DNA of 64,000 nucleotides from Haloplasmatales bacterium 4B. Lineage in GTDB: Bacteria; Bacillota_I; Bacilli_A; Haloplasmatales; Haloplasmataceae. This document shows, one piece after another, positions 11,459 through 48,915 of the stretch. The notes under the pieces were generated by a model, which worked only from the letters and a program-made list of their open reading frames with translations, was not told the origin of the DNA and searched no databases. Position 1 is the stretch's first letter, and the number at the start of each line of letters is the position of its first letter. The stretch is from the NCBI GenBank assembly GCA_003586005.1, contig NSKI01000011.1, forward strand, positions 1-64,000. The letters run 5' to 3'. The position numbers were made by a program, and so were the translations under genes.

Positions 11459-11487
11459 AATGTTCATCTCTAATCTTATAAAATAAA

Positions 11488-11514
11488 ATTAGCGCAGCAA
11501 GATGCCGCGCTAAT
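11488..11514 (-). terminator. intrinsic terminator of the c-di-GMP riboswitch
   Basis: 12-base arms (11488-11499 and 11503-11514) with one mismatch and a 3-base loop, followed on the minus strand by TTTTATTTTAT. It lies between the aptamer and the diguanylate cyclase start and is the likely expression platform. Confidence 0.75.
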
Positions 11515-11561
11515 TATTCGTTTTTTTCACATAACAGTATTGTTCAAAATTAGTTTTTAAA

Positions 11562-11640
11562 GGCAACCCGACAATCATTGTATTTCTACATTAGATTCGT
11601 GGCTTTGCGTCCTAGACTTTCGTTCTAGTTTGCTTTTTTC
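11562..11640 (-). promoter_or_regulatory. c-di-GMP-I (GEMM-I) riboswitch aptamer
   Basis: Minus strand contains the class I hallmarks in order: an A-run, GCAAAC, a short hairpin (CTAGAACGAAAGTCTAG) with a GAAA tetraloop, GGACGCAAAGCC, and the closing GTCGGGTTGCC. It sits between a promoter (11653-11681) and a terminator (11488-11514) ahead of the GGDEF gene. Whether ligand turns the gene on or off depends on the alternative pairing, which needs folding analysis. Confidence 0.88.
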
Positions 11641-11652
11641 AAATATAATTAA

Positions 11653-16202: not shown

Positions 16203-19200
16203 CTAATAAATAATAAATTTTGACATTGCATTATCTATGATACTATTAACTTCAGCTTCAACTAATCCATTAACTTCTTCAACATATTCAAGCATATGAG
16301 CTTCTACTAATGAATCAATTTCAGATATAGTTAAGTCAGGGTTATCATATATCAACTGATTACGATAACTTTGTTCTTCTAAATCTATTAGTTCTTGTCT
16401 AATTAATTGACGATTTACTAAATCGCTGTCATTTTCAAAATGTTGATAAAAATCATTTTCAGTAATTACAGGTATATTAATTTGTAATAAATTACTCGTT
16501 GTTTTTTGAGCTAGCTTGCTAATTACTTCTTCTTTATCCAAATTATTGTGTACCATTGATATATATGATAATTTATTAATTATGTTTAATTCAATAGAGT
16601 TCAAATTAGTTAAGGAGTTGCTAATATATAAATATCGTAACTGCGAACAATTATTAAACATACTAAAAATGTCAGCTGAATCTAACGTTAAATTTTCTAA
16701 ATATAATGTTTGCAAATTATTTTTATCGATATTATCCATAAATGAAAAATCTGTTAGTTTATTGCTTGCTAAATGAATTGTTTGAAATTCTACATTTTCA
16801 AAACCAGAAATTGACTCAATATTTTCGTATGATTCCAATTCACTTAACTGTGTATTATTAAAACCTGATAACTCCATAACTCCATCATTAACAGAAAAAT
16901 GCAAATTATATAAAGGCGTATCATTAAATGAGTTAGTAATATATAACTTATCATAATTATCAAATTCAACCCAATTCAAATTGGAGTTATCGTCAAATGA
17001 ATCTGTTATTTGCATGTTGCCACCATTACCATTAATCATCATGGAAACAATACTATTATTAATAAAACTTCCTGAGATTGAACTAATAAATGTATCTGAT
17101 AAATTAATTTCTGATAGATCAGTATTATTTTTAAAACTATTTGATATTGAAGATATTGTAATATATCCAAAATTAATATAGTTAAGTTTACTATTGTTAA
17201 AAAGACTAGATATCGCTTCTATCTCTAAATTATCATAAACTGATCCGGATATAGAAATACGTTCAAGATTTGTTAATTTCGAGATATCAACAGGAAAGTT
17301 TGCAAATTTTCGATCACTAGTGATAATATTATTCATATTTAGTACTTTTAAACTTGTTAAATCATCAATAAAATGGTAATTATCTATTGACGTATTTGAT
17401 ACATCCAAAGTTTCTACATATGTAAATGAATCGTTAATAGTTATTGATTTACTGTAGTTATACGGGAAGTATAAATTAACTAATTTACTACTTTTGAAGC
17501 TACTATCAATATTATTTATATTGCTACCTAAATTAACATTATATAAACTAACACAAGCATTAAAACTATTAGTTATATCTGTTACATTATCACTTAATGA
17601 AATACTTTCTAAATTTGATAAATTACTACATGATAAATTATCAATAGTAGTTATAGTAGTATTGTTTCCAAAATTAAGTATAATTAAATCATTCATTTCG
17701 GAAATAAAGTCTATATTAGTAAAACCAGTGTTTGATAAATTTAAACTTTCTAAATATTTAAATGATCCATTTAAATCATTACTATACCCATTTAGAAAAC
17801 TAATTTGTGTAAATAATTTACTATTAAAACTATTTTCAACTATCACTGACATCTTATCTATATTATAAACACCATAATAATAATTAGTAATACTAATTAA
17901 CTCATTATTTCCTGATAGTGTATCTGTAAATTTAACTACAGTACCAGGGATGTCTAAGACCTTTAAAGATTCCATGTTATTTAAACCAACTAATTCTGTA
18001 AATTCATTTTCTGCTAAGTTTAAATAGGTAAGTGAACTCATATTATCAAAAACGCTATTGTTACTAAGTTCATTTAATTTAATAGATATAATATTATTAT
18101 TTATTAAATTTAATTCTTCTAAATTAACTAAATTTATTAATGGTTTTATATCACTAATATTATTATTGTTTAAACTTAATATCTTTAATGATGTTAAGTT
18201 TTCTAAACTAGCAATATCTTGAATTTTATTGTTATCATAATTTTTATTAATATACAATATTTCTAATCTATTTAATCCACTTACATATGTTAAATTAGTA
18301 ATATCAGTATAACTTAAATCAAGTTCTTTAATGTATGTTAAATTTTCTAAAAAATCAAAATTATTTATTATTTTATAACTTAAATTTACCGTCTGGAAAT
18401 TATTATCTTTTAAACTATCAGCTGTAATATCTACTGCATTTGCTGTTATGCTATATAAATCCAAATCAGCACTTCCCAGACTAGACAACCCATTAATATA
18501 ATTGATAGATGTTGTTGTTAAATATAAATTTGTTAAGTTTTGTAAATTTGTAATCCCGTTTATAAAAGTAATATTGTTAGATTCTAAATTTAAGATTTCT
18601 AGATTATCTAAGTTGTTAATTCCATTTACCGAACTAATATTATTATCATTTAAATATATTTCTTTTAAATTCACAAAATTAGAAAGCAAATTAAAGTTAT
18701 CTAATACAACATTATTAAATCCTAAATCCAGGATTTCTATTTTAGGCATCTTACTTAAGAATTCAACATTATTAATTTGGTTCCCAACTAAAGAAAGATT
18801 TTTTATTAGATTAGAATTAATATCAGTAATACTAATATTAATTAAATTATTATCTGCTGAAAACGACCCCAGTTTTGGTAAATTATTAATCCACAAAATA
18901 TCAGTTAATTGATTATTATTAACTTCAACTTTTGTTACATTTAAAAGATTAAATGAATTTATATCTATACTGTTTATGCCATAATCATTTAAATTTACTT
19001 CTGTAAATTGATTTAATCCTTTAAAAGAATTGATAATATCAGTATTAATTGTTAAAAAATCAAAACTCAATACATTTATATCTTCATTAAGATAAAACAA
19101 TAATTTGGGTGTATTTATAAATGAATTTTCAATCCTATTAATATCGTTATATTTTTCATTTTCATAGTCAAACCAAGTTATACGCGATAGATTATCCATT

Positions 19201-21152
19201 TCACTAAACGAATTTACTATTTCGGTTATTTCATTATTGTGTAAAATTAGGTCCGATAAACTATCATTATCTTTAAAATCAATGATTTTTGTTAAATTAT
19301 TATTCGCTAAATTTAACACTTTAATTGATGGTAAAGTGGTTTGTGTCAAAGCTGGTAAAGTCGTAATAAAATTATTAGATAAATCTACATTTTCTATAGT
19401 AGATAATTTAAATAGTTCATTAATTGATATAATATTATTATTTGCTAAAGACAAATTTTTTAGTTTTGGGAAATTAGCAACACTTAAAAATGCGACATTA
19501 TCAATTAGATTACCACTTAAATCTAATGTGTTAATTTTAGTAGGATTGATAATTTCTTCCTCAATATTAGAAATTAAATTGTTAGTTGCTGAAAAATTCG
19601 TAAGATTAGGTAAATTATTAATCCACAAAATATCAGTTAACTGATTATCATTAACTTCAACTTTTGTCACATTTAAAAGATTAAATGAATTGATATCTAT
19701 ACTGTTAATGCCGCAATCATTTAAATTTACTTCAGTAAACTGATTTAATCCTTTAAAAGAATTGATAATATCAGTATTTGTTGTTAAAAAATCAAAACTC
19801 AATACATTTATATCTTCATTAAGATTAAATAATATTTGGGGTGTATCTATAAATGAATTTTCAATCCTACTAATTATATTTTTCTTTTCATCTTCATCAA
19901 TATTTTTATACCATGAAACCTGTGTTAAATTATCCATTTCAATAAATGAATCAATTATTTCTGTTATCTCATTTTCAGCTAAATTAAGATTAACTAAACT
20001 ATCATGTTTTTGAAAATTAGTAATTTTCGTTAATTTATTGTTTGATAGATCTAAAGTTTTTATTGTAGGAAGTGTGTCATTATTTATTACGGGTAGCTCA
20101 GCGATTAAATTATCTTTTAAAATTAAAGTCTCAAATACATTATCATGCAATGAGGTGTTATTAATTAAAGGTGAAATATTAGAAATTAAATTATTAGATA
20201 AATCTAATATTTTTAGGTTACCTAAATCTAAATCAGAGGTAATAGTTGCTAGTGAATCTATTCCATTATCCTTTGCGAAAAATGTTTCTAAACCTGATAT
20301 ATTTTCAATAAAAGTAAAGTCAGCAACAGTTGACATGCAACTAGCCTCAGCATTCATATTTGTTAAATTATTGTTACTTATATCTAAAATCTTTAGTTTT
20401 TCTAAAGTTCCTAATGCTTCAGTTTTACAAATATTATTAGTTGCTGCAAACAAGTTTTCTAACGCGTCAAAACCATCAATTTCATTTACATTATTAAAAC
20501 TTATTTTGTTGTTTTCAACACTAAGTGTTTTTAATTTCGGCAAATTACTAAGCGCGTCAATAGTCTCCACTTCATTTTTATTAATATTTATTGTTTCTAA
20601 GTTCTCTAAATCAGCTAATTCTTCAACTTCAATTAAACCATTATTTACTAAATTAATTTCACTCAAACGTTTAAAATTTTCAATACCATCTAAACGTTGT
20701 AATGTATTAGTATTATTTATTGTAAGGCTCTTTAGCTTAGTCATATTTTTTAATGGTTCTAGTTTAAAAATTTTTGTATTGTCGATTGTCAATGTTTCAA
20801 CACGTTCTAGGTTTATTAATGGTGAAATATCTTTAATTGATTTACCTGTTAATTCTAACTTATTAATATATGGGAAACATTGAATTCCATTAAGATCGAT
20901 TTCATATAATGGATCATCTTCATTAATAATTAAAGACTTTACTTCCACAATAGAATCACCAAATTTATTGCTTTCAATTTTATAACCATTTTCAACTAAT
21001 ATTTTATAAAAATCATCACTAACAGTGTTAATAAATTGATTATAAGTTTGACAATAATCAGGTAAAAAAACCTTATTCCTACTATTGTCAAGACAAGATG
21101 TAAGGATAAAAGCATATAACAATAAAATTGGGATCAATATTTTTCTACGCAT
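16203..21152 (-). CDS. giant leucine-rich-repeat surface lipoprotein
   Basis: A 1649-residue lipoprotein: signal peptide with lipobox ILTSC (Cys 20), then internalin-like leucine-rich repeats from about residue 75 to 1540 with the pattern L-x2-L-x-L-x2-N-x-I, and a ~100-residue acidic helical tail. It would project from the outer face of the membrane as a long solenoid for protein-protein contact. Residues ~429-515 and ~673-759 are almost identical, within a 244-residue duplicated block. It is the last gene of the 17-kb operon; the ATG follows GGGAGG and starts 1 base after the preceding ABC gene's stop. That coupling suggests it works with the four ABC proteins, perhaps as their substrate-capturing or adhesive component. 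No catalytic motif was seen. Confidence 0.88.
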   Translation of the reverse strand: MRRKILIPILLLYAFILTSCLDNSRNKVFLPDYCQTYNQFINTVSDDFYKILVENGYKIESNKFGDSIVEVKSLIINEDDPLYEIDLNGIQCFPYINKLELTGKSIKDISPLINLERVETLTIDNTKIFKLEPLKNMTKLKSLTINNTNTLQRLDGIENFKRLSEINLVNNGLIEVEELADLENLETININKNEVETIDALSNLPKLKTLSVENNKISFNNVNEIDGFDALENLFAATNNICKTEALGTLEKLKILDISNNNLTNMNAEASCMSTVADFTFIENISGLETFFAKDNGIDSLATITSDLDLGNLKILDLSNNLISNISPLINNTSLHDNVFETLILKDNLIAELPVINNDTLPTIKTLDLSNNKLTKITNFQKHDSLVNLNLAENEITEIIDSFIEMDNLTQVSWYKNIDEDEKKNIISRIENSFIDTPQILFNLNEDINVLSFDFLTTNTDIINSFKGLNQFTEVNLNDCGINSIDINSFNLLNVTKVEVNDNQLTDILWINNLPNLTNFSATNNLISNIEEEIINPTKINTLDLSGNLIDNVAFLSVANFPKLKNLSLANNNIISINELFKLSTIENVDLSNNFITTLPALTQTTLPSIKVLNLANNNLTKIIDFKDNDSLSDLILHNNEITEIVNSFSEMDNLSRITWFDYENEKYNDINRIENSFINTPKLLFYLNEDINVLSFDFLTINTDIINSFKGLNQFTEVNLNDYGINSIDINSFNLLNVTKVEVNNNQLTDILWINNLPKLGSFSADNNLINISITDINSNLIKNLSLVGNQINNVEFLSKMPKIEILDLGFNNVVLDNFNLLSNFVNLKEIYLNDNNISSVNGINNLDNLEILNLESNNITFINGITNLQNLTNLYLTTTSINYINGLSSLGSADLDLYSITANAVDITADSLKDNNFQTVNLSYKIINNFDFLENLTYIKELDLSYTDITNLTYVSGLNRLEILYINKNYDNNKIQDIASLENLTSLKILSLNNNNISDIKPLINLVNLEELNLINNNIISIKLNELSNNSVFDNMSSLTYLNLAENEFTELVGLNNMESLKVLDIPGTVVKFTDTLSGNNELISITNYYYGVYNIDKMSVIVENSFNSKLFTQISFLNGYSNDLNGSFKYLESLNLSNTGFTNIDFISEMNDLIILNFGNNTTITTIDNLSCSNLSNLESISLSDNVTDITNSFNACVSLYNVNLGSNINNIDSSFKSSKLVNLYFPYNYSKSITINDSFTYVETLDVSNTSIDNYHFIDDLTSLKVLNMNNIITSDRKFANFPVDISKLTNLERISISGSVYDNLEIEAISSLFNNSKLNYINFGYITISSISNSFKNNTDLSEINLSDTFISSISGSFINNSIVSMMINGNGGNMQITDSFDDNSNLNWVEFDNYDKLYITNSFNDTPLYNLHFSVNDGVMELSGFNNTQLSELESYENIESISGFENVEFQTIHLASNKLTDFSFMDNIDKNNLQTLYLENLTLDSADIFSMFNNCSQLRYLYISNSLTNLNSIELNIINKLSYISMVHNNLDKEEVISKLAQKTTSNLLQINIPVITENDFYQHFENDSDLVNRQLIRQELIDLEEQSYRNQLIYDNPDLTISEIDSLVEAHMLEYVEEVNGLVEAEVNSIIDNAMSKFIIY
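18877..19137 (-). repeat. intragenic duplication, copy A
   Basis: About 260 bases inside the LRR gene nearly identical to 19609-19869, offset exactly 732 bases (244 codons), so the frame is kept. The flanking parts of the 244-codon unit are recognisably homologous but much more diverged. Confidence 0.85.
19609..19869 (-). repeat. intragenic duplication, copy B
   Basis: Partner of 18877-19137. Matching runs include the codons for INVLSFDFLT and INSFKGLNQFTEVNLND in both copies. Confidence 0.85.
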
Positions 21153-21153
21153 C

Positions 21154-23682
21154 TTACACTACCTCCCTTAATATATCAATTGGATTAGTGTTAACAACTT
21201 TAGCGATACTTCTGCTACTTATGTACATAATCAATGATACAACAACAATTATTTGAACTAATAAATTCACATAAGATACATTTATAATCGAATTACTATC
21301 GCTAATTAATAAATGAATATTTGAAAAAGTGAGAACAGGAGAATTTAAAGAAGTTAAATCAATAAAGAAATTGTTAATGGCATTATAGATAAATAATAAG
21401 ACCACAAAAGTAAGAATTGAAGCGGTAGTAAAGATATAAATTACTTCGTATTGGAATAAACGCTTAATATCTTTAATAGTTGAGCCTACCGATCTAAATA
21501 CTCCTATTTCATTAATTCTAGCTTTAAAAATCACTTTAATTAACATTGAATAAAATATAACTGAGGCAATCATTAAAATATTAAAAAAGATAGAAAACAA
21601 AGTATTAATCATATTTAAATATGATGAAGCAACATTATCAGTACCACAGGCGTTATAATTATTGACATAAAAAATACTTTTAAATAAGTCGCTTTTCGCA
21701 ATTATTGCATCGTCAAATGCTTTTGGACTACAAACTTCATTACTTTGAGCGCTATCATGGCTAATAAGTGAAACATTTTTAAACTCATAGCTACTACGAC
21801 TAAGAACATCAAATATTGAATCCTCATTATCATTTGCCCTATTAGTATAATTAATAGTATACATACTGTTTAAATAATTAATATTCTGTTTATTTTCTGT
21901 AAACAAATTATTATAATTTTCATTAGTCATATAAATAATTGATTCATTTTGGTTATCGATTATTCCTGTAATTGTAAATTTAACAGAATTTGTTTTATCT
22001 AAATAAAAAGCAACATCTAGATCAGCTTGTAATACCAGGTCATAAACGCTTTTAATATAGTCTTCATCCCTAATATCACTTAAATAATATATCGCACCAG
22101 ACCTTTTTAGCAATTCAAAATATTCTGGATTATTTATTTGTTTTTTAAAATTATCTATATATTCTAAATAATCATCATAACTAGCAAACACATTATTATT
22201 ATCTTCGAAATGTAATTTGCATTTTTCCAGAAAATTGGGTTCTAGTGATTCTTTATCCATACAATAGTTAGGCACTTTCATATCAACAAAACGAATATCG
22301 TGACCGTTAATAGTGCTATTATTTAATAAATCCTCTACATCAATTAATTTATCACCTTTAGATACATTGTATTGCGGTACAGTTAACTCTTTGCCAATAT
22401 ATTGGTCTATATCATCGTAAGCATCTAAATTATAATATTCTTTAATAAATTTCGATGTTGTCATTAATGTTCTTGGTCGCATAGGTTTAATTGATTTGTT
22501 TATAAAAAGTTTATCATGATCATATTTATTTAAATTTGTTGTTAATAGTCGCAAATTGTACTCTTCAAGTAAATCAGGACTATTTTGTAAATTTTCAAGA
22601 GAATAGACTATGTTATTGTAATCAACGACATCTTTTGAAATTCCCGAAACTATTTCATTTTGATCTTTTAAAGAAATTTTATCAATCATTCGCTGATTTA
22701 TTGAATTAAATTCTAAGGCACTTATACTTTCCTTATTACTTATAACACTTATTGAGTTAGAATCTATCTTATTTAATGTTTCATAATAAGAATAGTAAGA
22801 ATCTCGAACACCTCGGTCAAGCCCATTAAAAAGAACTGAAAAACTAAATGCAAGGGCAAGAGATAAAGCGATAAAGAAATTTCTAAAGAAACTTGTCCGT
22901 AGTTTATTAAAAGTCATTATAAACTTATCACGTTTTTTTAAGCTAACAGCTTTTATTTTTCTAAAAACATTTTGATAAGTTTGTTCAATCTGTTCTTTAA
23001 TCAAATCCTGCTTGAAATTTCCGTTTTCAATTTCAATTATGCGATTAGCATACTTGTTAGCTATGGATCTGTCATGGGTAACCATCACAACTAAACGATC
23101 TTCTGATTCACCTTTTAGTAATTTTATTACTTCATCCGCGGTACGCCAATCCAGAGCGCCGGTTGGTTCATCAGCTAAAATAATATCTGGGTCTTTAACA
23201 AGGGCCCTAGCGATAGCTACACGCTGTCTTTGTCCACCTGATAATTGTTGAGGCAATTTATTAATATGGTCTAATAGCCCAACTTTTTCAACAACACTCT
23301 TGATTTTAGCATCCTTCATGCTTTTCGGAACATTTTGAAATTGTAAAGCCACTTCGACGTTTTGATAAACAGTTAAATATTCAATAAGAAAATAGTTTTG
23401 AAAAATAAATCCGATTTTTTTATTTCTTAGAGCATCCCAATGGCCTTCATTTAATCGTGAAACATTATTTCCTTCGCAATAATAATCGCCTTTTGTTGGT
23501 TGGTCAAGTCCACCTAAGATATTAATTAATGTCGATTTCCCCGATCCAGACCGTCCTACAACCGCTACAAACTCGCCTCTTTTAAATGAAGTGGATATAT
23601 TATTCAAAGCAGTTACTGACCGTTTTCCTATGTATACTTTTGTTAATTCAACAAGTCTTAATATGACGTCGCCTCTAGACAT
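21154..23682 (-). CDS. ABC ATPase fused to FtsX/MacB-type permease (842 aa)
   Basis: Residues 1-225 are a LolD/MacB-type ATPase: Walker [10 protein letters not shown], signature [15 protein letters not shown], Walker [13 protein letters not shown] and switch VTHD. A helix near 265-285 is followed by a ~400-residue predicted extracytoplasmic domain, then three C-terminal helices with the FtsX-like [13 protein letters not shown] loop. This NBD-TM-ectodomain-3TM order is that of MacB, which couples ATP hydrolysis to movements outside the membrane rather than moving solute through the bilayer. It is the seventh gene of the operon, next to the LRR lipoprotein. The ATG follows GGAGGGG. Cysteines in the ectodomain may form disulphides. 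Confidence 0.88.
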
Positions 23683-23694
23683 TATATCCCCTCC

Positions 23695-25794
23695 TTACCA
23701 TGTTAATGTTTCAATAGCTTTTTTTCTAGAAATTCGATATGCAGGTATATAAACACTCAATAAATACAAGATAATTGTTGCTAAAATAACATAGAAAAAT
23801 ATATCGACTTCATAAGATATTGTACTAATTCTTCCAAATTCCTTAATCAGATTTGAATTAAAGGATATTATTCGCGTGTAAAGGCTTGTCAACCCTAATA
23901 CTAATAGTGCATATACTGCCATTAAAATTATGACTAGAATTGTAAGTACTTTTAATGTTTCCCTAACAAATATTCTTCTTATACTAACTCTACTTACACC
24001 AATACTTGTGTAGACACCAATATCTTTAGTACGCGAAGAAATATTAAATAGGACAATATTCATAACAACTGTACCAAAAATAACAAAAATGGCGATAATT
24101 ATAAAAAGTATAAGGTAGTAAGCAAAATTTTCTAACAACACTCCTTGTTCAAATTCATTTAGTTTAGAATTAGTAATTTGAATATTGTATTTATCTTCTA
24201 ATAGCTTTAGATCATTAGTTCCATTTTTAAAATCTTTATAATAAAAATAAGCATCACTTTTATATAAATTATCAATAGATGTATACTTTAAATCTGTCTG
24301 TAAATAATTAAGATAATTTGTAAAGCCATCCGGGCTTATAAAAATTGTGCCGGAATAATTTATTCCATTATAATTTGAATCAAGGATTCCTACTATTTTT
24401 GTTTCAAAACAATTATCAAGGTCATCAGTATCACCACAAACATAAATTGATTGGTTTAAAAATGATTCCATAGGATATTCTTTAATAATAGCTTGCAACT
24501 CTTTTTTATAGTTTTTATATTCATCTTTCTCAAAGCTAATATTTAAATAATGACTATAAATGAGCTCTGTTGTTACATAAACACCATTTGCAGTTGTGTT
24601 AGAATCACTGTTTTCATATAATAGTTGATCGCTTAAATAGAAATTATTTGGATTTACTGGCATAGTTTTTAATTCAATGTTATGAACATTATTAACTGAT
24701 TCTATAAATCCAGATTCATATGTATTGTTCTTGTATTCTAAATATGATTTTTCAACTAAATACTTATTTTCTAATCCAACTTCACTTATATCTGGATTCA
24801 ATTTCAACTGGTCTAAACTAAAATCATCATAATCTGTGATAAAATATCTTTGATAATCATTATTTCGTTCAAACATTAATTTATTATGGATAACAGCATT
24901 ATTTAAAATCAAATTGATAATAAATAAGATTGCTAATCCAATGACAAATGATGTTATAATTTTCAGATTCGCAGCTTTATTTTGTTTAAAGTTAGCATTT
25001 GCTAAAAATCTTACAAATCTACGATTAACTTTTTTATATCCACTAGCATATTTCCTATTTATGGTTAGTTTTTGCATTTGTTTAGTTTCAGCGTCTGGTT
25101 CGCTTTTACCCATATTTTCATTATATTCATCAGATATTATCCGTCCATCTTTAATGCGAATAATTCTATCTGCGTATTCAGATGCCAATTTTTCATCATG
25201 AGTAACTAGTAATACAATCCGTTTTTCTTTAGCATAATCTCTTATCATATTCATGATAGATGTTGCTGATGCACTATCTAGTGCTCCAGTTGGTTCATCA
25301 CACAAGAGGATATGTGGACTTGATAAAATACTCCGAGAAATTGCTACTCTTTGTTTTTCTCCTCCAGATAATTTACTAGAGTTTGTATTTATATGTTTCT
25401 CTAAACCAACTTCAGTTAAGATTCTTTTTGATTTTGACTCATAAACCCGTTTTCTCTCTCCAGAAAACATTAACGGTAACATAACATTTTCTTTAGCTGT
25501 TAAGTGTTCAACTAAATTATAACGTTGAAAAACAAAACCAATATTTTTGTTGCGAAATTTTCTCCATGCTGAATCATCAAATTTTTTAGTTGAAACACTA
25601 TCGATGATTATTTCACCTTCAGTATAATTGTCAATTCCACTTAACATATTTAATAGTGTTGATTTTCCACTACCACTCTCACCTAAGACTGCGATAAATT
25701 CACCATCATAAAAGGTTAAATTAATGTCATTCAAAGCAATAAAATCTTGTTCTTTTGTATAGAATACTTTTTTAAGTCCTTTTATTTCAATCAT
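23695..25794 (-). CDS. ABC ATPase fused to FtsX/MacB-type permease (699 aa)
   Basis: N-terminal ATPase (1-225) with Walker A GESGSGKST, signature LSGGEKQRVAISRSI and Walker [13 protein letters not shown]; a linker to ~265; one helix near 280-300; a ~250-residue predicted ectodomain; and C-terminal helices near 560-690 carrying the FtsX loop KDIGVYTSIGVS. All nucleotide-site motifs look intact. It is a paralogue, not a copy, of the three other fusions in this operon: the ATPases align easily while the ectodomains differ in length and sequence. The start lies 2 bases after the preceding stop. Fused half-transporters of this sort dimerise, so it may pair with itself or with one of its neighbours. 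Confidence 0.88.
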   Translation of the reverse strand: MIEIKGLKKVFYTKEQDFIALNDINLTFYDGEFIAVLGESGSGKSTLLNMLSGIDNYTEGEIIIDSVSTKKFDDSAWRKFRNKNIGFVFQRYNLVEHLTAKENVMLPLMFSGERKRVYESKSKRILTEVGLEKHINTNSSKLSGGEKQRVAISRSILSSPHILLCDEPTGALDSASATSIMNMIRDYAKEKRIVLLVTHDEKLASEYADRIIRIKDGRIISDEYNENMGKSEPDAETKQMQKLTINRKYASGYKKVNRRFVRFLANANFKQNKAANLKIITSFVIGLAILFIINLILNNAVIHNKLMFERNNDYQRYFITDYDDFSLDQLKLNPDISEVGLENKYLVEKSYLEYKNNTYESGFIESVNNVHNIELKTMPVNPNNFYLSDQLLYENSDSNTTANGVYVTTELIYSHYLNISFEKDEYKNYKKELQAIIKEYPMESFLNQSIYVCGDTDDLDNCFETKIVGILDSNYNGINYSGTIFISPDGFTNYLNYLQTDLKYTSIDNLYKSDAYFYYKDFKNGTNDLKLLEDKYNIQITNSKLNEFEQGVLLENFAYYLILFIIIAIFVIFGTVVMNIVLFNISSRTKDIGVYTSIGVSRVSIRRIFVRETLKVLTILVIILMAVYALLVLGLTSLYTRIISFNSNLIKEFGRISTISYEVDIFFYVILATIILYLLSVYIPAYRISRKKAIETLTW

Positions 25795-25796
25795 TA

Positions 25797-28700
25797 TTAT
25801 TCACCGTCCAAATCTGCAACTGAATTCAGCATTTTCATATCCGCCATATTATGATTAATATTATCATCAATTAATTGTTTCTTAAATATAATCTGCATTA
25901 AAATTACTACCGATATAAAAGAGAATATATTAAAATTAAACAATTCTGATAATTGAATATTAAGAAATAATTGGTTTGACGATTGATACAAATATATAAC
26001 GAATGGGTTATCTCGGTAAAAATAACCTATAGCTTCACCAATTAACAATATAACTACAACAATACCGTAGGATACTATTAGTAAGATTCGACCTTCAATT
26101 TTCATAATCCTCTTTAAGTCTTCAAATTTAGCACCAAGAATTCTCAAACTACCATATTCATTACGACGATTAACCAAGAATAACTGATAAATATTTCTAA
26201 ACAATCTCGAGACTATAAAAGCGAATGTATACATCAAGACAACTACTAATGTGCCTGAAGCCAGGGCAGACATACTTTTAATGATAATCTCTGGATTAAG
26301 ATAATAAAGTCCTACTTTTTCAGTTATTGTTTTTATAGAATCATCAGAAACATCTAGACTTAACCCTGTCATTCCTGAAATATTATTATCAAATATTTCA
26401 AGTCCCATTTTAATCATTATAAATAAGTTTTGATAACTGTTTTCTGTTAAATCATTATCATATTCTAACTTTAAAACACTTTCTGGGTTAGATTTAAGAC
26501 TATAATTTGAATTGTTGAATTTATCCCAATATTCATCCAAAAAAACTGTTTTAATTGTCATTTCATTAGCTAATGAATTAGGTTTTTTTAAACCATTTTT
26601 AATATCAGCTAAATAAGCCAAATTTTCTTGTTTTTGAATATTTTGATAAACATCGTAAACATTGTTTACAATAAATTCATCATAAGAATCTAAGTTACAA
26701 TCACCGCAAATATCATTTTGTTGAGAAGGTTCCATCAATTGTAAATAGTTAAATAGGAAATTATTTAACAAGCCGGCATAATTCAAATTGTAACCTTCTA
26801 TTTGACCATTTAAATTACTTATATCATCACTTAAATCAAACATCGCATGTTCAAGTGGTAATGTTAATTCTTTAATTCGTTCATACAACAAATTATAATT
26901 AATTTTCAAATAATTGGTTTGAATTTCAGTAATTACTTCATCTAGATTTTTTTCTTCATAAATATCTTTGTTAATCTCCATATATAAAGGAACTAGATGA
27001 GATTCTTCATACAAATTATCAATAATTTGAATATTAACTAAATCATTTGCTTTATTAGAAAAGAAGATATTAATATTATTTTTAGTAGTAAAATATGATT
27101 CAATTTTTTCTGAAGCATTGTAAAGCCCAACTATTTTAAAGCGATTAGTCTCAAACTCCTCAACAATACCACTTTCATTTATTGTAATTTTAGGAGTACT
27201 TATTTCAATCCATTTTTCTTCTTCAGATAAATTTTTAAATTGCTGATAAACCTTGTTGATATTTGAGGTATTTGTCCCTTTTAAAATCTTGGAATTTATA
27301 ATTGTTTCTACAGAAACAAGTACTTCATTTTCTTTATTTGGCAATCTACTATCACCAATAAGAAATTCTTCTAAATAGTCCGAATTGTTATCAGCATATA
27401 GATAGGAAAGTCCAAAGTTTACTTCTTTATTTAATAATTGACTTATATGTAAGTCATTAGTAATATTAATCACTTGGTAATTTACCTTTAAATTATCAAA
27501 TATGATTTCTTCATTTTTTTCTCCAACTACAATGTTTTGTGGATCATAATACATTGAGTAATGACTATCATACTTATTTTCATTTAAGTATTCTTCAATT
27601 TTTTTATAAGCATTTAATGTTTGCTTAAAATTAAATGAATAATCATTTATTAATACTTTATTTTCCTTACTACTAAACTCATCAAGATTTGTTTCTTCAA
27701 TAAATTGTTCTTTATAATCACTAACATTTCCTTCTAATAACAACCCTGTTTCATGTATAGAATTAAATTGAATTAGTTTATTTTCTTTATATATACTGTT
27801 ATTTATATTAACAGTGTTATCATTTTTCATAAATATACCTGATGTAAGGTTTATTCCAATTAAAGTTAACAACAGAAAACTAGTGAGGAAAAATGATAAA
27901 AACAGATACGTTTTCCGGTGAGTTATAACTGAGGTTCTCGCAAAACGTTTCCCTTCTGCCATTGTCTCTGTAATCCCACTATATGAATCAAAACGTTCTT
28001 CTGTTTCAAATTGTTTTCTACGTTCCTTAATTACTTTATCTTTTTCTTGAGAATCTATATGAAATGTTTCTTCAGAACGTTCTTTATATTGAGTTAAATC
28101 CAAACCTAAATCTTTTAAAATTTGCGATTTATCAACCTTTTCTTCTAGGTTATTTATATCTGTCATTTCCCATAATTTATCATCATCACCGTAGAGACCT
28201 TCATCAACAATTTGGTCAAGTTCATCTACCTGAATATTTGATTTATCACCCTTAACTAATTCATCTCTAACAACATAGCCACTCTTTAATTCAATCAATC
28301 TTGTACCGTAGTTTTTAACAATTGATTTATTGTGGGTTGCGATTATCAGTAACTTATTTTTACAAACACTTGCAAGTAAATCTAAAATTTCTTTACTTGT
28401 CATACTATCTAAAGCGGCAGTTGGTTCATCACATATAATACACTCAGGGTCTTTGACAATCGCTCTAGCGATTGCTACTCTTTGTTTTTCTCCTCCAGAC
28501 AATTGCCAAGGCTTTTTATAAGCATGTCTTCTTAAGCCGACAAGAGTCAGAGCCTTCATCGCATTTAACCTTTTCTTTTTCTCGTTAGTTACACCTAATA
28601 CATTTAGTGACAATTCTACATTTTCAAGTACAGTAAGGTTATTAAATAAAACTTGATGTTGAAAAATAAATCCAATTTTTTTACTCCGCAATTCATCAAT

Positions 28701-28928
28701 TTTAGCTTGAGGTATTGTTTTAAATTCATTATTATCAAAGAAGTAACTACCAGAATAAGTATTATCAAAACCACCAAGCACGTTTAAAAAAGTAGACTTT
28801 CCCGATCCACTCCGCCCCAAAATTACTATTACTTCACCTTTTTCAAACTGAAAGTTTAAGTTACTTAGGGCAACAACATTATAATTAATTGTTTCATATA
28901 CTTTTGTCAAATTCTTTATATTTATCAT
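25797..28928 (-). CDS. ABC ATPase fused to FtsX/MacB-type permease (1043 aa)
   Basis: The largest of the four fusions. The ATPase (1-220) has Walker [10 protein letters not shown], signature [15 protein letters not shown] and Walker B CIICDEPTAALD. A charged ~120-residue linker follows, then a helix near 340-365, a ~520-residue predicted ectodomain, C-terminal helices near 895-1025 with an FtsX-like NEYGSLRILGAK loop, and a charged tail. The long linker and ectodomain are unusual for MacB-like proteins and could hold partners on both sides of the membrane. The ATG (after GAGGGAA) starts 1 base after the previous stop. Confidence 0.87.
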   Translation of the reverse strand: MINIKNLTKVYETINYNVVALSNLNFQFEKGEVIVILGRSGSGKSTFLNVLGGFDNTYSGSYFFDNNEFKTIPQAKIDELRSKKIGFIFQHQVLFNNLTVLENVELSLNVLGVTNEKKKRLNAMKALTLVGLRRHAYKKPWQLSGGEKQRVAIARAIVKDPECIICDEPTAALDSMTSKEILDLLASVCKNKLLIIATHNKSIVKNYGTRLIELKSGYVVRDELVKGDKSNIQVDELDQIVDEGLYGDDDKLWEMTDINNLEEKVDKSQILKDLGLDLTQYKERSEETFHIDSQEKDKVIKERRKQFETEERFDSYSGITETMAEGKRFARTSVITHRKTYLFLSFFLTSFLLLTLIGINLTSGIFMKNDNTVNINNSIYKENKLIQFNSIHETGLLLEGNVSDYKEQFIEETNLDEFSSKENKVLINDYSFNFKQTLNAYKKIEEYLNENKYDSHYSMYYDPQNIVVGEKNEEIIFDNLKVNYQVINITNDLHISQLLNKEVNFGLSYLYADNNSDYLEEFLIGDSRLPNKENEVLVSVETIINSKILKGTNTSNINKVYQQFKNLSEEEKWIEISTPKITINESGIVEEFETNRFKIVGLYNASEKIESYFTTKNNINIFFSNKANDLVNIQIIDNLYEESHLVPLYMEINKDIYEEKNLDEVITEIQTNYLKINYNLLYERIKELTLPLEHAMFDLSDDISNLNGQIEGYNLNYAGLLNNFLFNYLQLMEPSQQNDICGDCNLDSYDEFIVNNVYDVYQNIQKQENLAYLADIKNGLKKPNSLANEMTIKTVFLDEYWDKFNNSNYSLKSNPESVLKLEYDNDLTENSYQNLFIMIKMGLEIFDNNISGMTGLSLDVSDDSIKTITEKVGLYYLNPEIIIKSMSALASGTLVVVLMYTFAFIVSRLFRNIYQLFLVNRRNEYGSLRILGAKFEDLKRIMKIEGRILLIVSYGIVVVILLIGEAIGYFYRDNPFVIYLYQSSNQLFLNIQLSELFNFNIFSFISVVILMQIIFKKQLIDDNINHNMADMKMLNSVADLDGE

Positions 28929-28929
28929 A

Positions 28930-30378
28930 CTATTCCCTCGCTAGCACTTTTATTGTATTTTCTTTATTCATTAAAAATGATGAAATCATCGTTTCAAAAA
29001 CTAAGATAAATACGATAGCTAAATAAGTTAATATTAATCTTAAGAAATTAACATTAACTGCTCCTACAACTTCTTTTTTAAAGGCACCAACAACAGTATC
29101 AAAAACAACATTAGCTACATGTTCAATAAACAGACTATATTCAGCCTTAAGTATATATGGTATAGCTTCAATACTCTTAATTATAAATAGTAATAAAAAA
29201 GTTTTTATAACTAGTTTTTTAAACATTAATAACGCATAAGTAAATGTCTTAATCACAAGTATTTTTCTTATCATACTTTGGTCAGCACCAAAGGCTTTCA
29301 TAACGGCAATCTCTTTACGTTTATCGTGAATAACCATATTGAAGATGAATAAAAAAGAAATAAAACTAAATAGTAAAAAGGCATATATTACACCATAAAT
29401 CATCATTTTAGGCATAGAATCATTGCTTATATTTAACCAACCAATAATAGCTGACATTACTGGTGTATTTACAAAATTAATAAAATATAAACCCAAAAAC
29501 TGATTTATATATTTTATAACAACAGCTGCAAGTAAAAAAATAATTGTAGAATTGATGATAGCATTCATAGCTTTAGTTAATTGTTTATTGTTAAAATTAA
29601 AACTAACCCTAGACATCGTAAAGAGTTGGCTAATTTTAAGTTGTTTCCGATTAGATTTTAAAGATTTTTTATTTTTTTCAATATCATCATTTAGGGATTC
29701 TTCATCTGAATCATAAAGGATTTCACCATCACTTAGAACAAGAATTCGATCGGAGTATTTTTTAGCGTACTCCTCATCATGAGTAACCATAATTACAGTT
29801 CGATCGTTAGTTAAATCCTTTAATAAAGCTAAAATAGAATCTGAAGTATAGTCATCTAAGGCACCAGTCGGCTCATCACACAGTATTATTTTTTGGTCAT
29901 TAACAATTGCCCTAGCAATAGCTACCCTCTGTTTTTGTCCACCTGATAATTCTTTCGGTTTTAATTTCAAAAATTGATTTAATCCAACATTCTGTAATGC
30001 TTTAGCGGCTAATTTACGTGCTTCCTTTAAACTTAAATTATTAACTACAAGCGGCATTGCGACATTATCTAAAATAGAAATATCATCAATTAAATTAAAT
30101 TCTTGAAAGACAAATCCTATATAGCGATTTCTTAATCTATTAATAAAACTTTTAGATAACTTATTAACGTTAAAACCATCTATATAAATTTGTCCAGAGT
30201 CAAATTCATCGAGAGTACTTATAGAATTCAGTAAAGTTGTTTTTCCGCTACCACTTCTACCAAGTATAGAAACGAATGTATTACTATTTATATCTAAGTT
30301 CAAACCATCAAAAATATTTTGCTTTTCGCCACCTTTTCCATATGATTTGACTAAATTTCTAATTGATATAATTGCCAT
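28930..30378 (-). CDS. ABC ATPase fused to minimal FtsX-type permease (482 aa)
   Basis: An intact ATPase (1-225; Walker A GRSGSGKTT, signature [15 protein letters not shown], Walker [21 protein letters not shown]) joined to a short permease: a helix near 268-290 and hydrophobic segments near 320-350, 375-400 and 450-475, with the FtsX-like KEIAVMKAFGAD loop. Unlike its three operon paralogues it has almost no extracytoplasmic domain, so it could be a core or stabilising half that pairs with an ectodomain-bearing partner. The ATG follows GAGGGATAATT. Confidence 0.87.
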   Translation of the reverse strand: MAIISIRNLVKSYGKGGEKQNIFDGLNLDINSNTFVSILGRSGSGKTTLLNSISTLDEFDSGQIYIDGFNVNKLSKSFINRLRNRYIGFVFQEFNLIDDISILDNVAMPLVVNNLSLKEARKLAAKALQNVGLNQFLKLKPKELSGGQKQRVAIARAIVNDQKIILCDEPTGALDDYTSDSILALLKDLTNDRTVIMVTHDEEYAKKYSDRILVLSDGEILYDSDEESLNDDIEKNKKSLKSNRKQLKISQLFTMSRVSFNFNNKQLTKAMNAIINSTIIFLLAAVVIKYINQFLGLYFINFVNTPVMSAIIGWLNISNDSMPKMMIYGVIYAFLLFSFISFLFIFNMVIHDKRKEIAVMKAFGADQSMIRKILVIKTFTYALLMFKKLVIKTFLLLFIIKSIEAIPYILKAEYSLFIEHVANVVFDTVVGAFKKEVVGAVNVNFLRLILTYLAIVFILVFETMISSFLMNKENTIKVLARE

Positions 30379-30391
30379 AATTATCCCTCGC

Positions 30392-30823
30392 TTACTTTAA
30401 GACATTATTAACCCAGTCATTAAATGCTTCATTATCATTTACATTATCTTTTAACCAATTAATAAATTTCTGATTACTAAGGAGCTTTTTAGCGTGATTC
30501 CCTTTATTTCGATATTCAAAAAACAAAAATTCACTTATATTCTCAATATTTTTAAATACTTCTTTCCCATAAATAAATTTCTTTGGCTTTTGTTTTTTTC
30601 TATTAGCTGGCTTAATCGAAAGATTTTTGCTGCTTGTTTTTCTATTTTGAAATATTTCAAAATTTTTAAAATTATCTAAGTCTTGATATATTTCATGATC
30701 GCTTTCATCTTGATTATTTTCAAGTTTAACTGGAGGTTTCTTCTTAATGATTTGATCAAGTTGGAAATCCTTTAGTTTATCATTAACATCTTCTTCTTTT
30801 AATTTTTCTTGATTTTGATCCAC
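30392..30823 (-). CDS. small charged cytosolic protein of the ABC-LRR operon
   Basis: A 143-residue, highly charged hydrophilic protein with no signal peptide or membrane segment and no family I recognise. Residues 1-80 are low-complexity (Lys, Asp, Asn, Glu); about 84-143 could fold as a small helical domain (FIYGKEVFKNIENISEFLFF to the Trp-containing end). The start codon is GTG, 7 bases after GGGGGAT. Lying between a membrane protein and the first ABC gene with 12-13-base gaps, it may be a cytosolic adaptor; that is inference from position only. Confidence 0.65.
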   Translation of the reverse strand: MDQNQEKLKEEDVNDKLKDFQLDQIIKKKPPVKLENNQDESDHEIYQDLDNFKNFEIFQNRKTSSKNLSIKPANRKKQKPKKFIYGKEVFKNIENISEFLFFEYRNKGNHAKKLLSNQKFINWLKDNVNDNEAFNDWVNNVLK

Positions 30824-30835
30824 TTTATATCCCCC

Positions 30836-31795
30836 TTATTTTAAAATAAAAAATAATAAAACTAATAGCACAGCGCTTATAGGTATAATTAAATTTATAT
30901 AGAATATAAATTTAAAAACTAAGTTTTTGGTTTGTTGATGAATACTTTTTTGTAAATGATTATTTAAAATCATTCTTGTATATTTAAATTGCAGGTTTGT
31001 TTTTTTTAAGTAACTTATGGAAAATTTCTTTTCTGGAGCACTATAATACATATATAAATCTTTTTCAAATCTTTCAATGTTTTCATCATTAATTTGGATT
31101 AGATTTTCATAGCGTTTCTTAATAACCTTTATTTCCTTCTGTTCTCTTTCTGATGCTCTTTTTAAATAATAAAAATAGGTAATTTTTATAAACGGAAAGA
31201 TAATTAATGTGTTAAATACAACATTATAAGCTATAGTATATTGCTTATCTACAACTGTGTTACCAATAAAATAATAATTAAATACTGCCAACAAAGTCCC
31301 TAATAACCAAAACCATTTTATATATTTTTTTATCCATTTATTGTTAATCTTTCGCTCTTTAGCCTCTGTTAATCTAGCATGTGAATTTATAAGCTTCAAA
31401 TCACTTTTTGCGGTATTTTCTAAAACAGTTTTATATTCATTTGATAATTGTTGAAAGCCACGATAAACAATATCTTGTTTTTGAGTATCAATTATATCCT
31501 CATTTTGTAAAATGTCATAAATTGATTGAATTGCTTTATCTTTGTAATTATAAATTTGAGTTTCTTCAAGATTTAAAGAATATTTTTTAGAACCTAGGCC
31601 CATAAAGAAAGGATTTGTATAACCTACAATAGGATTTACTAATTTGTGTTGTTTGTTCACTATCTCTAAAAAAGATTCATCTTCTATCTCTTTACTTCCT
31701 AGTAGCAATAATTCATTTTTCTTAAGTTGTATAAAATTTGTGACATCTACTCCTTGAGTTTCAAATAGAATTATTAACTTTTCATAATCTCTCAT
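30836..31795 (-). CDS. membrane protein with cytosolic domains, ABC-LRR operon
   Basis: A 319-residue protein of unknown family. Residues 1-150 are soluble and mostly helical. Two hydrophobic segments lie near 155-175 and 185-210, a charged coiled-coil-like stretch at 211-285 (SEREQKEIKVIKKRYENL), and a last membrane helix at 295-319. Basic residues flanking the first pair suggest the N-terminus and coil are cytosolic. It is the second gene of the operon, 22 bases after the first. A scaffold role is possible, but nothing in the sequence proves it. Confidence 0.7.
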   Translation of the reverse strand: MRDYEKLIILFETQGVDVTNFIQLKKNELLLLGSKEIEDESFLEIVNKQHKLVNPIVGYTNPFFMGLGSKKYSLNLEETQIYNYKDKAIQSIYDILQNEDIIDTQKQDIVYRGFQQLSNEYKTVLENTAKSDLKLINSHARLTEAKERKINNKWIKKYIKWFWLLGTLLAVFNYYFIGNTVVDKQYTIAYNVVFNTLIIFPFIKITYFYYLKRASEREQKEIKVIKKRYENLIQINDENIERFEKDLYMYYSAPEKKFSISYLKKTNLQFKYTRMILNNHLQKSIHQQTKNLVFKFIFYINLIIPISAVLLVLLFFILK

Positions 31796-31817
31796 TATTT
31801 ATCACATCACTTTACGA

Positions 31818-33548
31818 CTATTTTATTAAGATCTTGAGCAATAGGTAAAATTCGTTACTATAATAATTATCATGTTTATATAAAACTTTTAGAATTTCAT
31901 ATCCAAAAATATTATCATTGTAATTTTTTTCAATATAGGGATACAATTTATTATTTAATTTAATTAATTCAGTTTTAATACTGGCCTTATCAAATCCATT
32001 CATTTCATCGATATTTATATAAAAATCATTAATTTTAGTACTACTTAAACGAATTTGTTTAGTGCTATCTATTTCTTCAGTAAAGTATCCCCACAGTAAT
32101 ATGTCAATTATTTCAAATATCTTTTCATCATCACAGACATCTTGTGACCTATAACATGTATCATTTAAATAGATTAATAACTCATATAATAATTTTTCAT
32201 TGTAAAGATATTTCTTTATTTTAACCTCGCTATCTAATGCTGCTGCACCAATTCTAACTTGGGGGGGAATATTTGTTTTTATAGATTTACTATATATATT
32301 GTAATCTTTTAAATAGCGTTCAGTTAATTGATAAGCATCAAGAAGTTCTACTTCAAATTTTTTAAATTCACTATTTTTATAATCTTTATTAAATTCCTTG
32401 ATTATCAAGTCTAGATTTTCACCATTTTGTAAAAACACTTCTACATCAGTAATACCTGAATCCTCCATAATCTTTAAAGACCATGATTGGATGAAATAAT
32501 AACAATCAATACTCAAATTTATTTGGTCTATTATGTCTTTATTGCCCTTATCTTTGATGTTTTTAAAACTTAAATAGTCTTCTTTAAATTGATTTAACAA
32601 TAATAATTTATCATTTTTATAATTAGCAATTAATGATCTGTTCTGATCTAACCAGATTATTAACTCGCTATTATTATTGATATAAGTATATAAATCATTA
32701 ATTATAACTTCTTCATTATATAGATATTCATTAAGATAGGGGATTTTCATAAGTATTTTTTGAGCAAAATTGCCTACATTAATATCTAATATTTCAGTGT
32801 AAAGATTATCTTCAACTAATACAGATAAAATCCCAACTTCATCTGACTCCATCTTTTCACTAATATAGATTTTGTTTTCTTCTGATAAATTTGGATAAAC
32901 ATTATTCATAAATTGTTTTTCATAATTACTTAATTGCGTTAATAAACCTGATGTTAAATTTAATCTATCTAGCATTTTATTTGTTGAAAATAGTTCAGTA
33001 AATGAAGATGCATTGTAACTAGCTTGTTCTATTTTACTAATGTCTGTTAAAACATCTATTTGGGTACTTTTTATAATTGGCATAGTGACAAGTGGTTTTG
33101 TTACCCCACTATAATATAATTGTGAATAAAAAACTGTAATAATAATGATAATATATAACATAAAAATTGATTTTCTCATAAATACAAATATAAAGTTAAC
33201 TTTTTTATAACCGGGATAATTTTGATTGAGCATTTTAACTAAACGGGTATATTTAAAAACTATTTTAATAATGATTTTAATAAATAAGTAAACAAAGCAA
33301 AAAATGATTAACACTATTAAAACACTTAAAATTATACCTAATTTAAAATCACTAATAAATTCATAGACAAAATATAGATTATTAAATGAAAATATATAAT
33401 AGATACATAAAAAAATGCTAAAAAAACTTGAGAAAGATTGACTCAAGTTTGTTTTTAATGATTTTTTATATGAACTGATAAGTACGAAAAAGATTGTAGC
33501 TATTGTAAAAGCTATAGTATAATTTAAAATACCATCAAAAATACTCAT
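31818..33548 (-). CDS. four-helix membrane protein with large ectodomain (CvpA-like layout)
   Basis: A 576-residue protein, first in the operon. Four hydrophobic segments fill about residues 3-150; the positive-inside rule (SSYKKSLK after helix 1, KYTRLVKMLNQ after helix 3) puts the remaining ~420 helical residues outside. Such a four-helix base joined to an outside domain recalls CvpA-family proteins fused to extracytoplasmic domains, but I see no decisive CvpA motif and no protease motif. The start is the ATG at 33548, 7 bases after GCGGGGG; an upstream in-frame GTG (33563) overlaps that ribosome site and was rejected. It could be the anchor or sensor of the ABC-LRR machine. Confidence 0.7.
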   Translation of the reverse strand: MSIFDGILNYTIAFTIATIFFVLISSYKKSLKTNLSQSFSSFFSIFLCIYYIFSFNNLYFVYEFISDFKLGIILSVLIVLIIFCFVYLFIKIIIKIVFKYTRLVKMLNQNYPGYKKVNFIFVFMRKSIFMLYIIIIITVFYSQLYYSGVTKPLVTMPIIKSTQIDVLTDISKIEQASYNASSFTELFSTNKMLDRLNLTSGLLTQLSNYEKQFMNNVYPNLSEENKIYISEKMESDEVGILSVLVEDNLYTEILDINVGNFAQKILMKIPYLNEYLYNEEVIINDLYTYINNNSELIIWLDQNRSLIANYKNDKLLLLNQFKEDYLSFKNIKDKGNKDIIDQINLSIDCYYFIQSWSLKIMEDSGITDVEVFLQNGENLDLIIKEFNKDYKNSEFKKFEVELLDAYQLTERYLKDYNIYSKSIKTNIPPQVRIGAAALDSEVKIKKYLYNEKLLYELLIYLNDTCYRSQDVCDDEKIFEIIDILLWGYFTEEIDSTKQIRLSSTKINDFYINIDEMNGFDKASIKTELIKLNNKLYPYIEKNYNDNIFGYEILKVLYKHDNYYSNEFYLLLKILIK

Positions 33549-33595
33549 ATTAATCCCCCGCACTTTTTGCCAAAATATGACATAATTTTTATGAA

Positions 33596-33624
33596 ATTAT
33601 ACCATATATTATTTTAATAGTCAA
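33596..33624 (-). promoter_or_regulatory. strong promoter of the ABC-LRR operon
   Basis: Minus strand: -35 TTGACT (33619-33624), 17-base spacer, -10 TATAAT (33596-33601), one mismatch from consensus overall. The start point would lie about 40 bases before the first ATG. No operator-like repeat was seen. Confidence 0.75.
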
Positions 33625-39730: not shown

Positions 39731-39732
39731 TT

Positions 39733-41661: not shown

Positions 41662-41671
41662 ATCTACTCAC

Positions 41672-48702: not shown

Positions 48703-48719
48703 TAAGGTACAACATTATA

Positions 48720-48915
48720 ACATTTTTAGGTGTCTCTTTGAGACTTAATAGGGAATTGGGTGAAAGACCCAGACTGTCCCAGCAACCGTAATATGGACGA
48801 AAGACAATAACCACTGCATAAGCGGGAAGGTGTCGAGTAGGGTGAAGTAGAGTCGGTAGACCTACCTTTAAAATGTCGTTGTCAAATCTCCTGGGAATGA
48901 GAGTTTTAGGCGTTA
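48720..48915 (+). promoter_or_regulatory. cobalamin (B12) riboswitch
   Basis: Class hallmarks occur in order: AGGTGTC, AATAGGGAATTGGGTGAAAGACCC, GACTGTCCCAGCAACCGTAA, CCACTGC, GCGGGAAGGTG, then AGTCGGTAGACCTACCT closing the core at about 48868. A terminator follows at 48935. High B12 is expected to stop transcription of the three downstream genes. Confidence 0.92.

Follow-up and report, generated by a model that had tools for sequence, protein, structure and literature searches.

Four different ABC motors and a giant leucine-rich repeat lipoprotein encoded together in Haloplasmataceae and a second family: a candidate envelope machine

In the known cases, a type VII ATP-binding cassette (ABC) protein acts as a single mechanical engine with a partner of its own. 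Whether several different engines of this kind can be kept as a set and work with one surface protein is the question raised by an operon of Haloplasmatales bacterium 4B (contig NSKI01000011.1, positions 1 to 64,000; this whole stretch of 64,000 nucleotides is called the window here). The operon consists of eight minus-strand open reading frames (ORFs) at 16203–33563 of the window, which encode, in order of transcription, M581, M319, small143, four ATPase-permease fusions (ABC1, ABC2, ABC3, and ABC4), and a leucine-rich repeat (LRR) lipoprotein of 1649 aa.

An earlier reading made from the letters without database searches (the sequence-only reading) had described eight tightly spaced genes on one strand and proposed that they form one multi-subunit surface machine. 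The gaps between the genes, which are 22, 12, 13, 1, 2, 12, and 1 bp in operon order (1–22 bp), agree with the description. We keep the proposal in the following form, to which we give slightly less than an even chance: the products of the operon make up a single, conserved machine of the cell envelope, namely a heteromeric type VII ABC assembly that acts mechanically on the LRR lipoprotein. We take the genes for one system because their order is conserved across two families and because M581 and the motor block occur together at two separate sites.

Conservation of the eight genes in two families

We searched 100 genomes each for M581 and M319, and obtained four matches, the window's own included, all in Haloplasmataceae. 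Both genes were present in three of the seven other Haloplasmataceae genomes and in none of the 92 other genomes of the class. In four Haloplasmataceae genera, the window's among them, the eight genes follow one and the same order. In one of these genomes (G003), a contig ends inside ABC4, and the rest of ABC4 with the start of the LRR gene opens another contig; this junction was read across the two contigs. M581, M319, small143, and the LRR protein are 30–41% identical to the window's within Haloplasmataceae, and the genes flanking the loci differ, as judged by eye.

Profile searches extended the distribution to a second family (f12), putatively the wall-less Izemoplasmataceae. An M319 profile matched 12 of 395 genomes of the class: four Haloplasmataceae, six f12 genomes (best E-value [E] 3e-8), and two genomes of other families, whose partial matches contain an internal stop. 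The M319 matches in f12 adjoin M581 homologues in 6/6 cases, and three are accompanied by a small143 match. A wider M319 profile run over 392 genomes gave seven matches from the two families and a weak partial match (5e-4) in family f4, which runs across four TGA codons. With a profile of the ABC4 permease, the long matches (E 8e-74 or better) among 395 genomes of the class were confined to the two families, with 4 genomes in Haloplasmataceae and 8 in f12; 264 genomes matched in all, the others partially, mostly in the FtsX end and at E 2e-11 or weaker. In 225 genomes of the phylum, seven matched the same profile at 1e-15, and all belong to Haloplasmataceae or f12. The best three candidates per genome were scored in the ABC4 search of the class, and the best five in both M319 profile searches, the ABC4 search of the phylum, and a search of 247 genomes for a 630-aa protein described below; an absence in these searches applies to the candidates scored.

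One f12 member (G051) is putatively Xianfuyuplasma coldseepsis zrk13, which is assigned to Izemoplasmataceae (NCBI taxonomy) and is a wall-less coccoid according to the available part of its description (PMC8397711). In f12, homologues of all eight genes occur in two blocks with housekeeping genes between them. The order is TsaE, TsaB, ABC1, ABC2, ABC3, ABC4, the LRR lipoprotein, and two related small lipoproteins (lipo1/lipo2), then RimI, TsaD, the 630-aa protein, M581, M319, small143, and GlnRS. This order was read in eight genomes and, over two contigs, in G531. The contig begins inside ABC1 in G283 and inside ABC4 in G248; in G248, M319 came from a search of 49 f12 genomes and small143 was unread, the second small lipoprotein has no separate entry in G075, and several f12 small143 homologues were assigned by position. 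The names TsaE, TsaB, RimI, TsaD, and GlnRS were checked with Pfam at one locus (L104), where the models matched were that of the TsaD family for the TsaB ORF, GNAT acetyltransferase models for the RimI ORF, and the class I E/Q synthetase model for the GlnRS ORF; elsewhere they were given by position and eye.

We also read seven f12 genomes picked for having the 630-aa protein and no long ABC4 match. Both blocks were gone from their places in all seven, and the housekeeping order was kept, with small differences (no RimI was seen in G173, and an extra ORF follows TsaB in G059 and G214). When all candidates were scored in the 49 f12 genomes, 13 had ABC4 and 17 had M319, all 13 being among the 17; in the 20 genomes of good quality, ABC4 and M319 were present in the same eight. 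Four ABC4 carriers (G534, G536, G537, and G538) lay outside the reading. The four M319-only genomes (loci L106 to L109; 75–88% complete; one weak match, 1.5e-17) kept M319 and small143 at the locus, where neither the ABC/LRR/lipoprotein block nor M581 was found. Three of them belong to a genus with other ABC4-bearing members. The pair lies alone there between the 630-aa protein and GlnRS, and may have a separate role.

Among the 20 f12 genomes read, nine have M581 together with the motor/LRR block and 11 have neither at the locus; ABC4 was absent genome-wide from these 11. Fisher's test of the association gave p 6e-6, a guide only, as kinship is ignored and the genomes were selected for reading. 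These results link M581 to the motors although the two lie at separate chromosomal sites, and show that M319/small143 can stand alone. The synteny check that the sequence-only reading had called for thus found the order conserved in three other Haloplasmataceae genera and a two-block arrangement in the second family.

The 630-aa protein (S630) was considered as a ninth component and rejected, being present in all seven machine-less neighbourhoods read, which were selected for it, and matching as many as 46 of the 247 genomes of the class (E 0.001), often over a short stretch. S630 is secreted or membrane-bound, lies next to TsaD (e.g. L043, 3–1892), and had no Pfam family over the cut-off in the two members scanned. 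In G234 (L105, G234:C1, 5002–9619), two MacB-like fusions other than ABC1–4 lie between the 630-aa protein and GlnRS. They occupy the site that M581–M319–small143 hold elsewhere and possibly represent a second system.

The motors, the LRR lipoprotein, and the membrane proteins

ABC1 (28930–30378; 482 aa), ABC2 (25797–28928; 1043 aa), ABC3 (23695–25794; 699 aa), and ABC4 (21154–23682; 842 aa) were identified as ATPase-permease fusions by Pfam, hydropathy, and an ATPase tree. Each motor of the window has four transmembrane (TM) segments by hydropathy, with a TM1–TM2 loop of ca. 38, 530, 260, and 410 residues in ABC1–4, respectively, the loops of ABC3 and ABC4 being predicted extracellular domains; two second-family homologues showed five TM segments. 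Pfam ABC_tran is present in all four, and FtsX is at or above the cut-off in ABC1, ABC3, and ABC4, barely in the last (25.8 vs 25.5 bits); ABC2 had no FtsX match. The best NCBIfam ATPase models were those of MacB, LolD, FtsE, and a bacteriocin exporter; no match reached the cut-off. All 40 machine ATPases agree with the Walker A, Walker B, and H-loop patterns, and 39/40 with the signature pattern.

To this set of ten sequences per motor from 10 genomes, we added seven further MacB-like fusions encoded in the window's genome and built a maximum-likelihood tree of the 47 ATPase domains. Each of ABC1–4 formed a single clade spanning both families (support 100/99 to 100/100), recovered in 100% of 200 bootstrap trees, and the seven other fusions fell outside these clades. 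The branching order among the four clades was weakly supported. The four non-identical fusions of the sequence-only reading are thus four orthologous lines.

In their MacB/LolD-class ATPase, four-TM permease, outer domain between TM1 and TM2, and, in three of the four, FtsX C-terminal domain, the motors resemble the type VII ABC proteins MacB, FtsEX, LolCDE, YtrEF, and YbbAP. The ABC3 permease profile matches the solved YtrF at E 3.7e-11 over most of the outer domain and TM2–4, and the ABC4 permease matches MacB (E 0.0015) and YtrF (E 0.0043) in the FtsX end only. Unlike the type VII systems, the locus combines four different fused subunits, one with almost no outer domain, with a giant LRR lipoprotein and a CvpA-related protein. 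The ATPase domains of ABC2 and ABC4 are 86–91% identical to the window's within Haloplasmataceae, and the outer domains 34–42% (measured against two relatives for ABC4). ABC3 is more even, with 68–71% in the ATPase vs 51–56% in the outer domain. This pattern suggests a fixed engine with a variable outside in ABC2 and ABC4, and less so in ABC3. In the draft genome G283 (C193, 4215–6464), the ABC3 gene is split into two ORFs of 604 and 144 aa, by an assembly error or as a broken gene.

The LRR lipoprotein (16203–21152) matches Pfam LRR families and begins with a hydrophobic stretch followed by Cys20 of the lipobox. Cys20 is invariant in 12/12 LRR sequences, the window's included, and this, with the hydrophobic N-terminus, is as expected for the 1649-residue lipoprotein that the sequence-only reading had recognised. 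Comparison of the 12 sequences defined a membrane-proximal domain at residues 20–110 (20823–21095), which is 37–57% identical to the window's in the 11 others from both families and has 14 residues invariant in 12/12, including Cys20, Cys34, and Cys92. Complete proteins are between 1355 and 2441 aa long, those of the second family about 2250 to 2440 aa. We infer that one end of the protein is conserved and docks and that its outer end is free. The LRR gene follows ABC4 in 13/13 loci where both are visible. LRR arrays are shared with the internalin-type surface proteins, and NCBIfam internalin-type models match at E 7e-30 to 7e-42. However, the best score was 143.7 bits against an NCBIfam cut-off of 1275, about a tenth, which places the protein outside the internalins; unlike them, the window protein also has a lipoprotein anchor with its own conserved Cys domain and is encoded beside four ABC motors.

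M581 was called as an ORF of 581 aa (31818–33563) with a GTG start at 33563. The start is more likely the ATG at 33548 (31818–33548; 576 aa) because a GGGGG stretch, a candidate ribosome site, lies upstream and the relatives agree with it. Hydropathy and the relatives predict about 3–4 N-terminal TM helices and a mostly helical C-terminal region of ca. 430 aa, which is probably extracellular. M319 (30836–31795; 319 aa) has a conserved N-terminal region and a C-terminal TM helix by comparison and hydropathy; one TM segment was over the threshold in the window protein and three in a second-family homologue. small143 (30392–30823; 143 aa) is a charged soluble protein with a conserved C-terminal domain of ca. 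50 aa and no TM segment by hydropathy, which fits the small charged cytosolic protein proposed earlier.

Pfam gave no family for M581 or small143 and a single sub-threshold chance match for M319 (E 0.087). A PDB sequence search gave none for M581 and chance-level TetR matches alone for M319 (E 0.11). Plasmid carriage was rejected, since a search of 72,556 plasmid records with M581 gave nothing at E 0.01; records near the window's genome may be omitted from this set. Profile–profile comparison of the two families' alignments, with few sequences each, related M581 (E 1.3e-9), M319 (E 1.7e-9), and small143 (E 1.8e-5). In M581, the similarity covers the long C-terminal region outside the part related to CvpA (Colicin_V, PF02674). 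All six second-family M581 homologues match CvpA at the N-terminus at E 0.1 or better (best 3.4e-8), and of two scored against the curated cut-off, one was above and one below it. None of the four Haloplasmataceae M581 proteins matches, the window's included; the added long helical region is carried by both families and conserved between them.

Possible function of the locus

Type VII ABC proteins can pass ATP-driven movement to outside partners without transmembrane transport, according to the available parts of two sources (PMC11466899; PMC12646458). In the machine we propose, the four different subunits, one of each, would probably form two heterodimers or one larger hetero-oligomer; the joint retention of a single copy of every motor at the loci read suggests that the hetero-oligomers are obligate. 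Cytosolic ATP binding and hydrolysis would be transmitted via the four-helix permeases to extracellular domains of very unequal size. Outside the membrane, the motors would work chiefly with the giant LRR lipoprotein, which would dock through its membrane-proximal Cys domain; work on this protein seems likeliest because it is the constant outer partner. Its variable solenoid may reach outward and bind something, while the motors may switch, pull, or release the lipoprotein. M581 would serve as a fixed scaffold beside the motors, and M319 with small143 as an accessory or regulatory pair in membrane and cytosol. With more reserve, though still as a serious possibility, we propose that this is a new class of surface nanomachine, in which four obligate type VII motors drive one giant solenoid and, by capturing, pulling, or releasing in a controlled way, do mechanical work outside a single-membrane cell, independently of peptidoglycan.

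Several observations weigh against such a machine. Homologues scattered singly in related genomes, named by the sequence-only reading as evidence against one system, were not seen for the parts tested; M319 and small143, however, stand without the rest in 4/20 f12 genomes read. The idea of a single system therefore stands by its conserved order and joint presence and absence, in a looser unity than first proposed. In the 11 block-less f12 genomes, the absence of M581 refers to the stretches read. lipo1/lipo2 were found in 0/8 Haloplasmataceae genomes by a search without a positive control; the parts list therefore differs between the families, and we rejected the two as universal components. 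Four of the eight Haloplasmataceae genomes lack M581, M319, and a full-length ABC4, and the machine is therefore dispensable. AlphaFold models built on three-row alignments had low mean predicted local distance difference test (pLDDT) values, 52.4 for M581 and 45.0 for ABC3, and were too poor for use. X. coldseepsis is described as non-motile cocci (PMC8397711), which also argues against motility.

An alternative that we consider unlikely, and keep as the main rival because the ABC3 permease resembles YtrF, is a system like YtrEF, Bce-type, or YbbAP-TesA that transports or senses a membrane-active molecule (a peptide, an antibiotic, or a lipid) and in which the LRR protein is an accessory binder and the motors extract or expel the compound. 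The place of bacteriocin exporters among the nearest NCBIfam ATPase models, below cut-offs, is in line with it. To our knowledge, no such system has four different motors and an LRR protein of 1355–2441 aa. The ytrGABCDEF operon of Bacillus subtilis likewise groups several ABC subunits with a YtrF-type permease and is tied to the lipid II cycle, its function being unsettled in the available part of the source (PMC12772383). However, Ytr has separate ATPases and permeases, with one type VII pair proposed (YtrE2F2; available part of PMC11466899), and the operon as described in the accessible parts of PMC12772383 and PMC11466899 includes no LRR or CvpA-type protein. The Bce-type transporters have a ten-TM permease with one outer domain (PMC11466899, available part), unlike the four TM segments of each window motor. 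MacAB-TolC pumps have a co-encoded MacA/HlyD-type adaptor; the scans of the operon revealed no such adaptor and no two-component or enzyme domain, although three of its proteins have no recognised domain. It is also unlikely that the shared substrate is lipid II, given that MurG misses the cut-off in the second family (see below).

We regard as less probable still a LolCDE-like handling of lipoproteins, in which the LRR lipoprotein (and lipo1/lipo2) would be pulled from the membrane and released or passed on, e.g. to the exterior or vesicles. The ATPase domains score highly against LolD models, although below cut-off, and a lipoprotein is present in every locus read, with two further small ones in the second family. 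LolCDE, however, works alongside a LolA/LolB carrier, and no such domain was found in a search covering the operon proteins and the lipo1/lipo2 of one second-family genome. Both lineages are single-membrane, with no second membrane to deliver lipoproteins to, and four specialised motors for one to three cargoes would seem excessive.

FtsEX-like control of cell-wall hydrolases is very improbable, even though the permeases are of FtsX type and the window's genome, with MurG over the cut-off, probably has a wall. This role needs peptidoglycan in all carriers. MurG was over the cut-off in 8/8 Haloplasmataceae and in 0/16 f12 genomes tested, eight of them machine carriers, with a partial sub-threshold match in one (G029); the model matched 14/14 control genomes and passed the cut-off in nine. 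Hydrolase control is therefore unlikely as the shared job. In addition, no hydrolase domain was detected in the operon by Pfam, and electron microscopy showed no distinct wall in X. coldseepsis, according to the available part of its description (PMC8397711). That independent transporter, LRR, and membrane genes merely lie close together here, by chance or as neighbours, is hardly credible: MacB-like ATPase domains are present in no fewer than seven further long ORFs of the genome (the ATPase being the domain counted) and the 12–22 bp gaps between some of the genes are ordinary, but the order is kept across two families, the motors form four orthologue clades, and presence and absence are joint at two sites.

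Two further functions were considered. Anti-phage defence was rejected, since the PADLOC matches on three ABC proteins were ATPase-part models (mad3, mad8, and others), taken as generic; the other four proteins in the scan, which excluded ABC3, had none. Motility was considered because Haloplasma is contractile, and is disfavoured: two genomes of 3.3–3.4 Mb from one Haloplasmataceae genus, which we take as possibly Haloplasma, lack M581, M319, and a full-length ABC4.

That no described system has this composition, as the sequence-only reading had judged, holds as far as we searched (open-access full text, judged on titles and abstract openings), and the main text of the X. coldseepsis paper has no occurrence of 'MacB', 'lipoprotein', or 'leucine-rich' (PMC8397711). 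As far as these literature searches show, the engine is known and the assembly is new. If the proposed machine is real, the type VII engine would gain a new organisational level, at which four motors and a giant surface protein are kept together as one set. Its putative presence in the cultured, wall-less X. coldseepsis would make complexes and localisation directly examinable in a simple envelope, and three proteins without a Pfam family in the window's genome gain a context and testable partners.

Promoter and other features of the window

The near-consensus promoter noted earlier ahead of the operon is there as a sequence match: TTGACT–17 nt–TATAAT with an upstream TG (TG-extended), at 33596–33624 on the minus strand, agrees with the consensus in 11/12 positions. 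The same scan gave 181 promoter-like sites in the region against 164.8 (standard deviation 10.9) in shuffles, so that the region is not clearly enriched; since the shuffles are nearly as rich, the match alone is weak. Two terminator-like sites were found vs 3.4 expected, none of them on the operon strand within the operon.

Elsewhere in the window, a cobalamin riboswitch (48712–48883, plus strand) lies ahead of a gene for a 408-aa DUF4430-domain protein (48994–50220, plus strand), perhaps a corrinoid-binding surface protein. Molybdopterin synthesis genes (a MoaA-like radical SAM protein and two MoeA-type proteins, one with a PBP-like domain) and an ABC ATPase gene occupy 38771–43529 (minus strand), and a molybdopterin oxidoreductase with an NADH-G-type iron-sulfur domain is encoded at 52743–55442 (minus strand). 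A cyclic di-GMP (c-di-GMP)-I riboswitch (11559–11644, minus strand; 73.6 bits) stands directly upstream of a gene for a GGDEF diguanylate cyclase (10424–11467, minus strand), an arrangement at 10424–11644 by which c-di-GMP could possibly feed back on its own synthesis.

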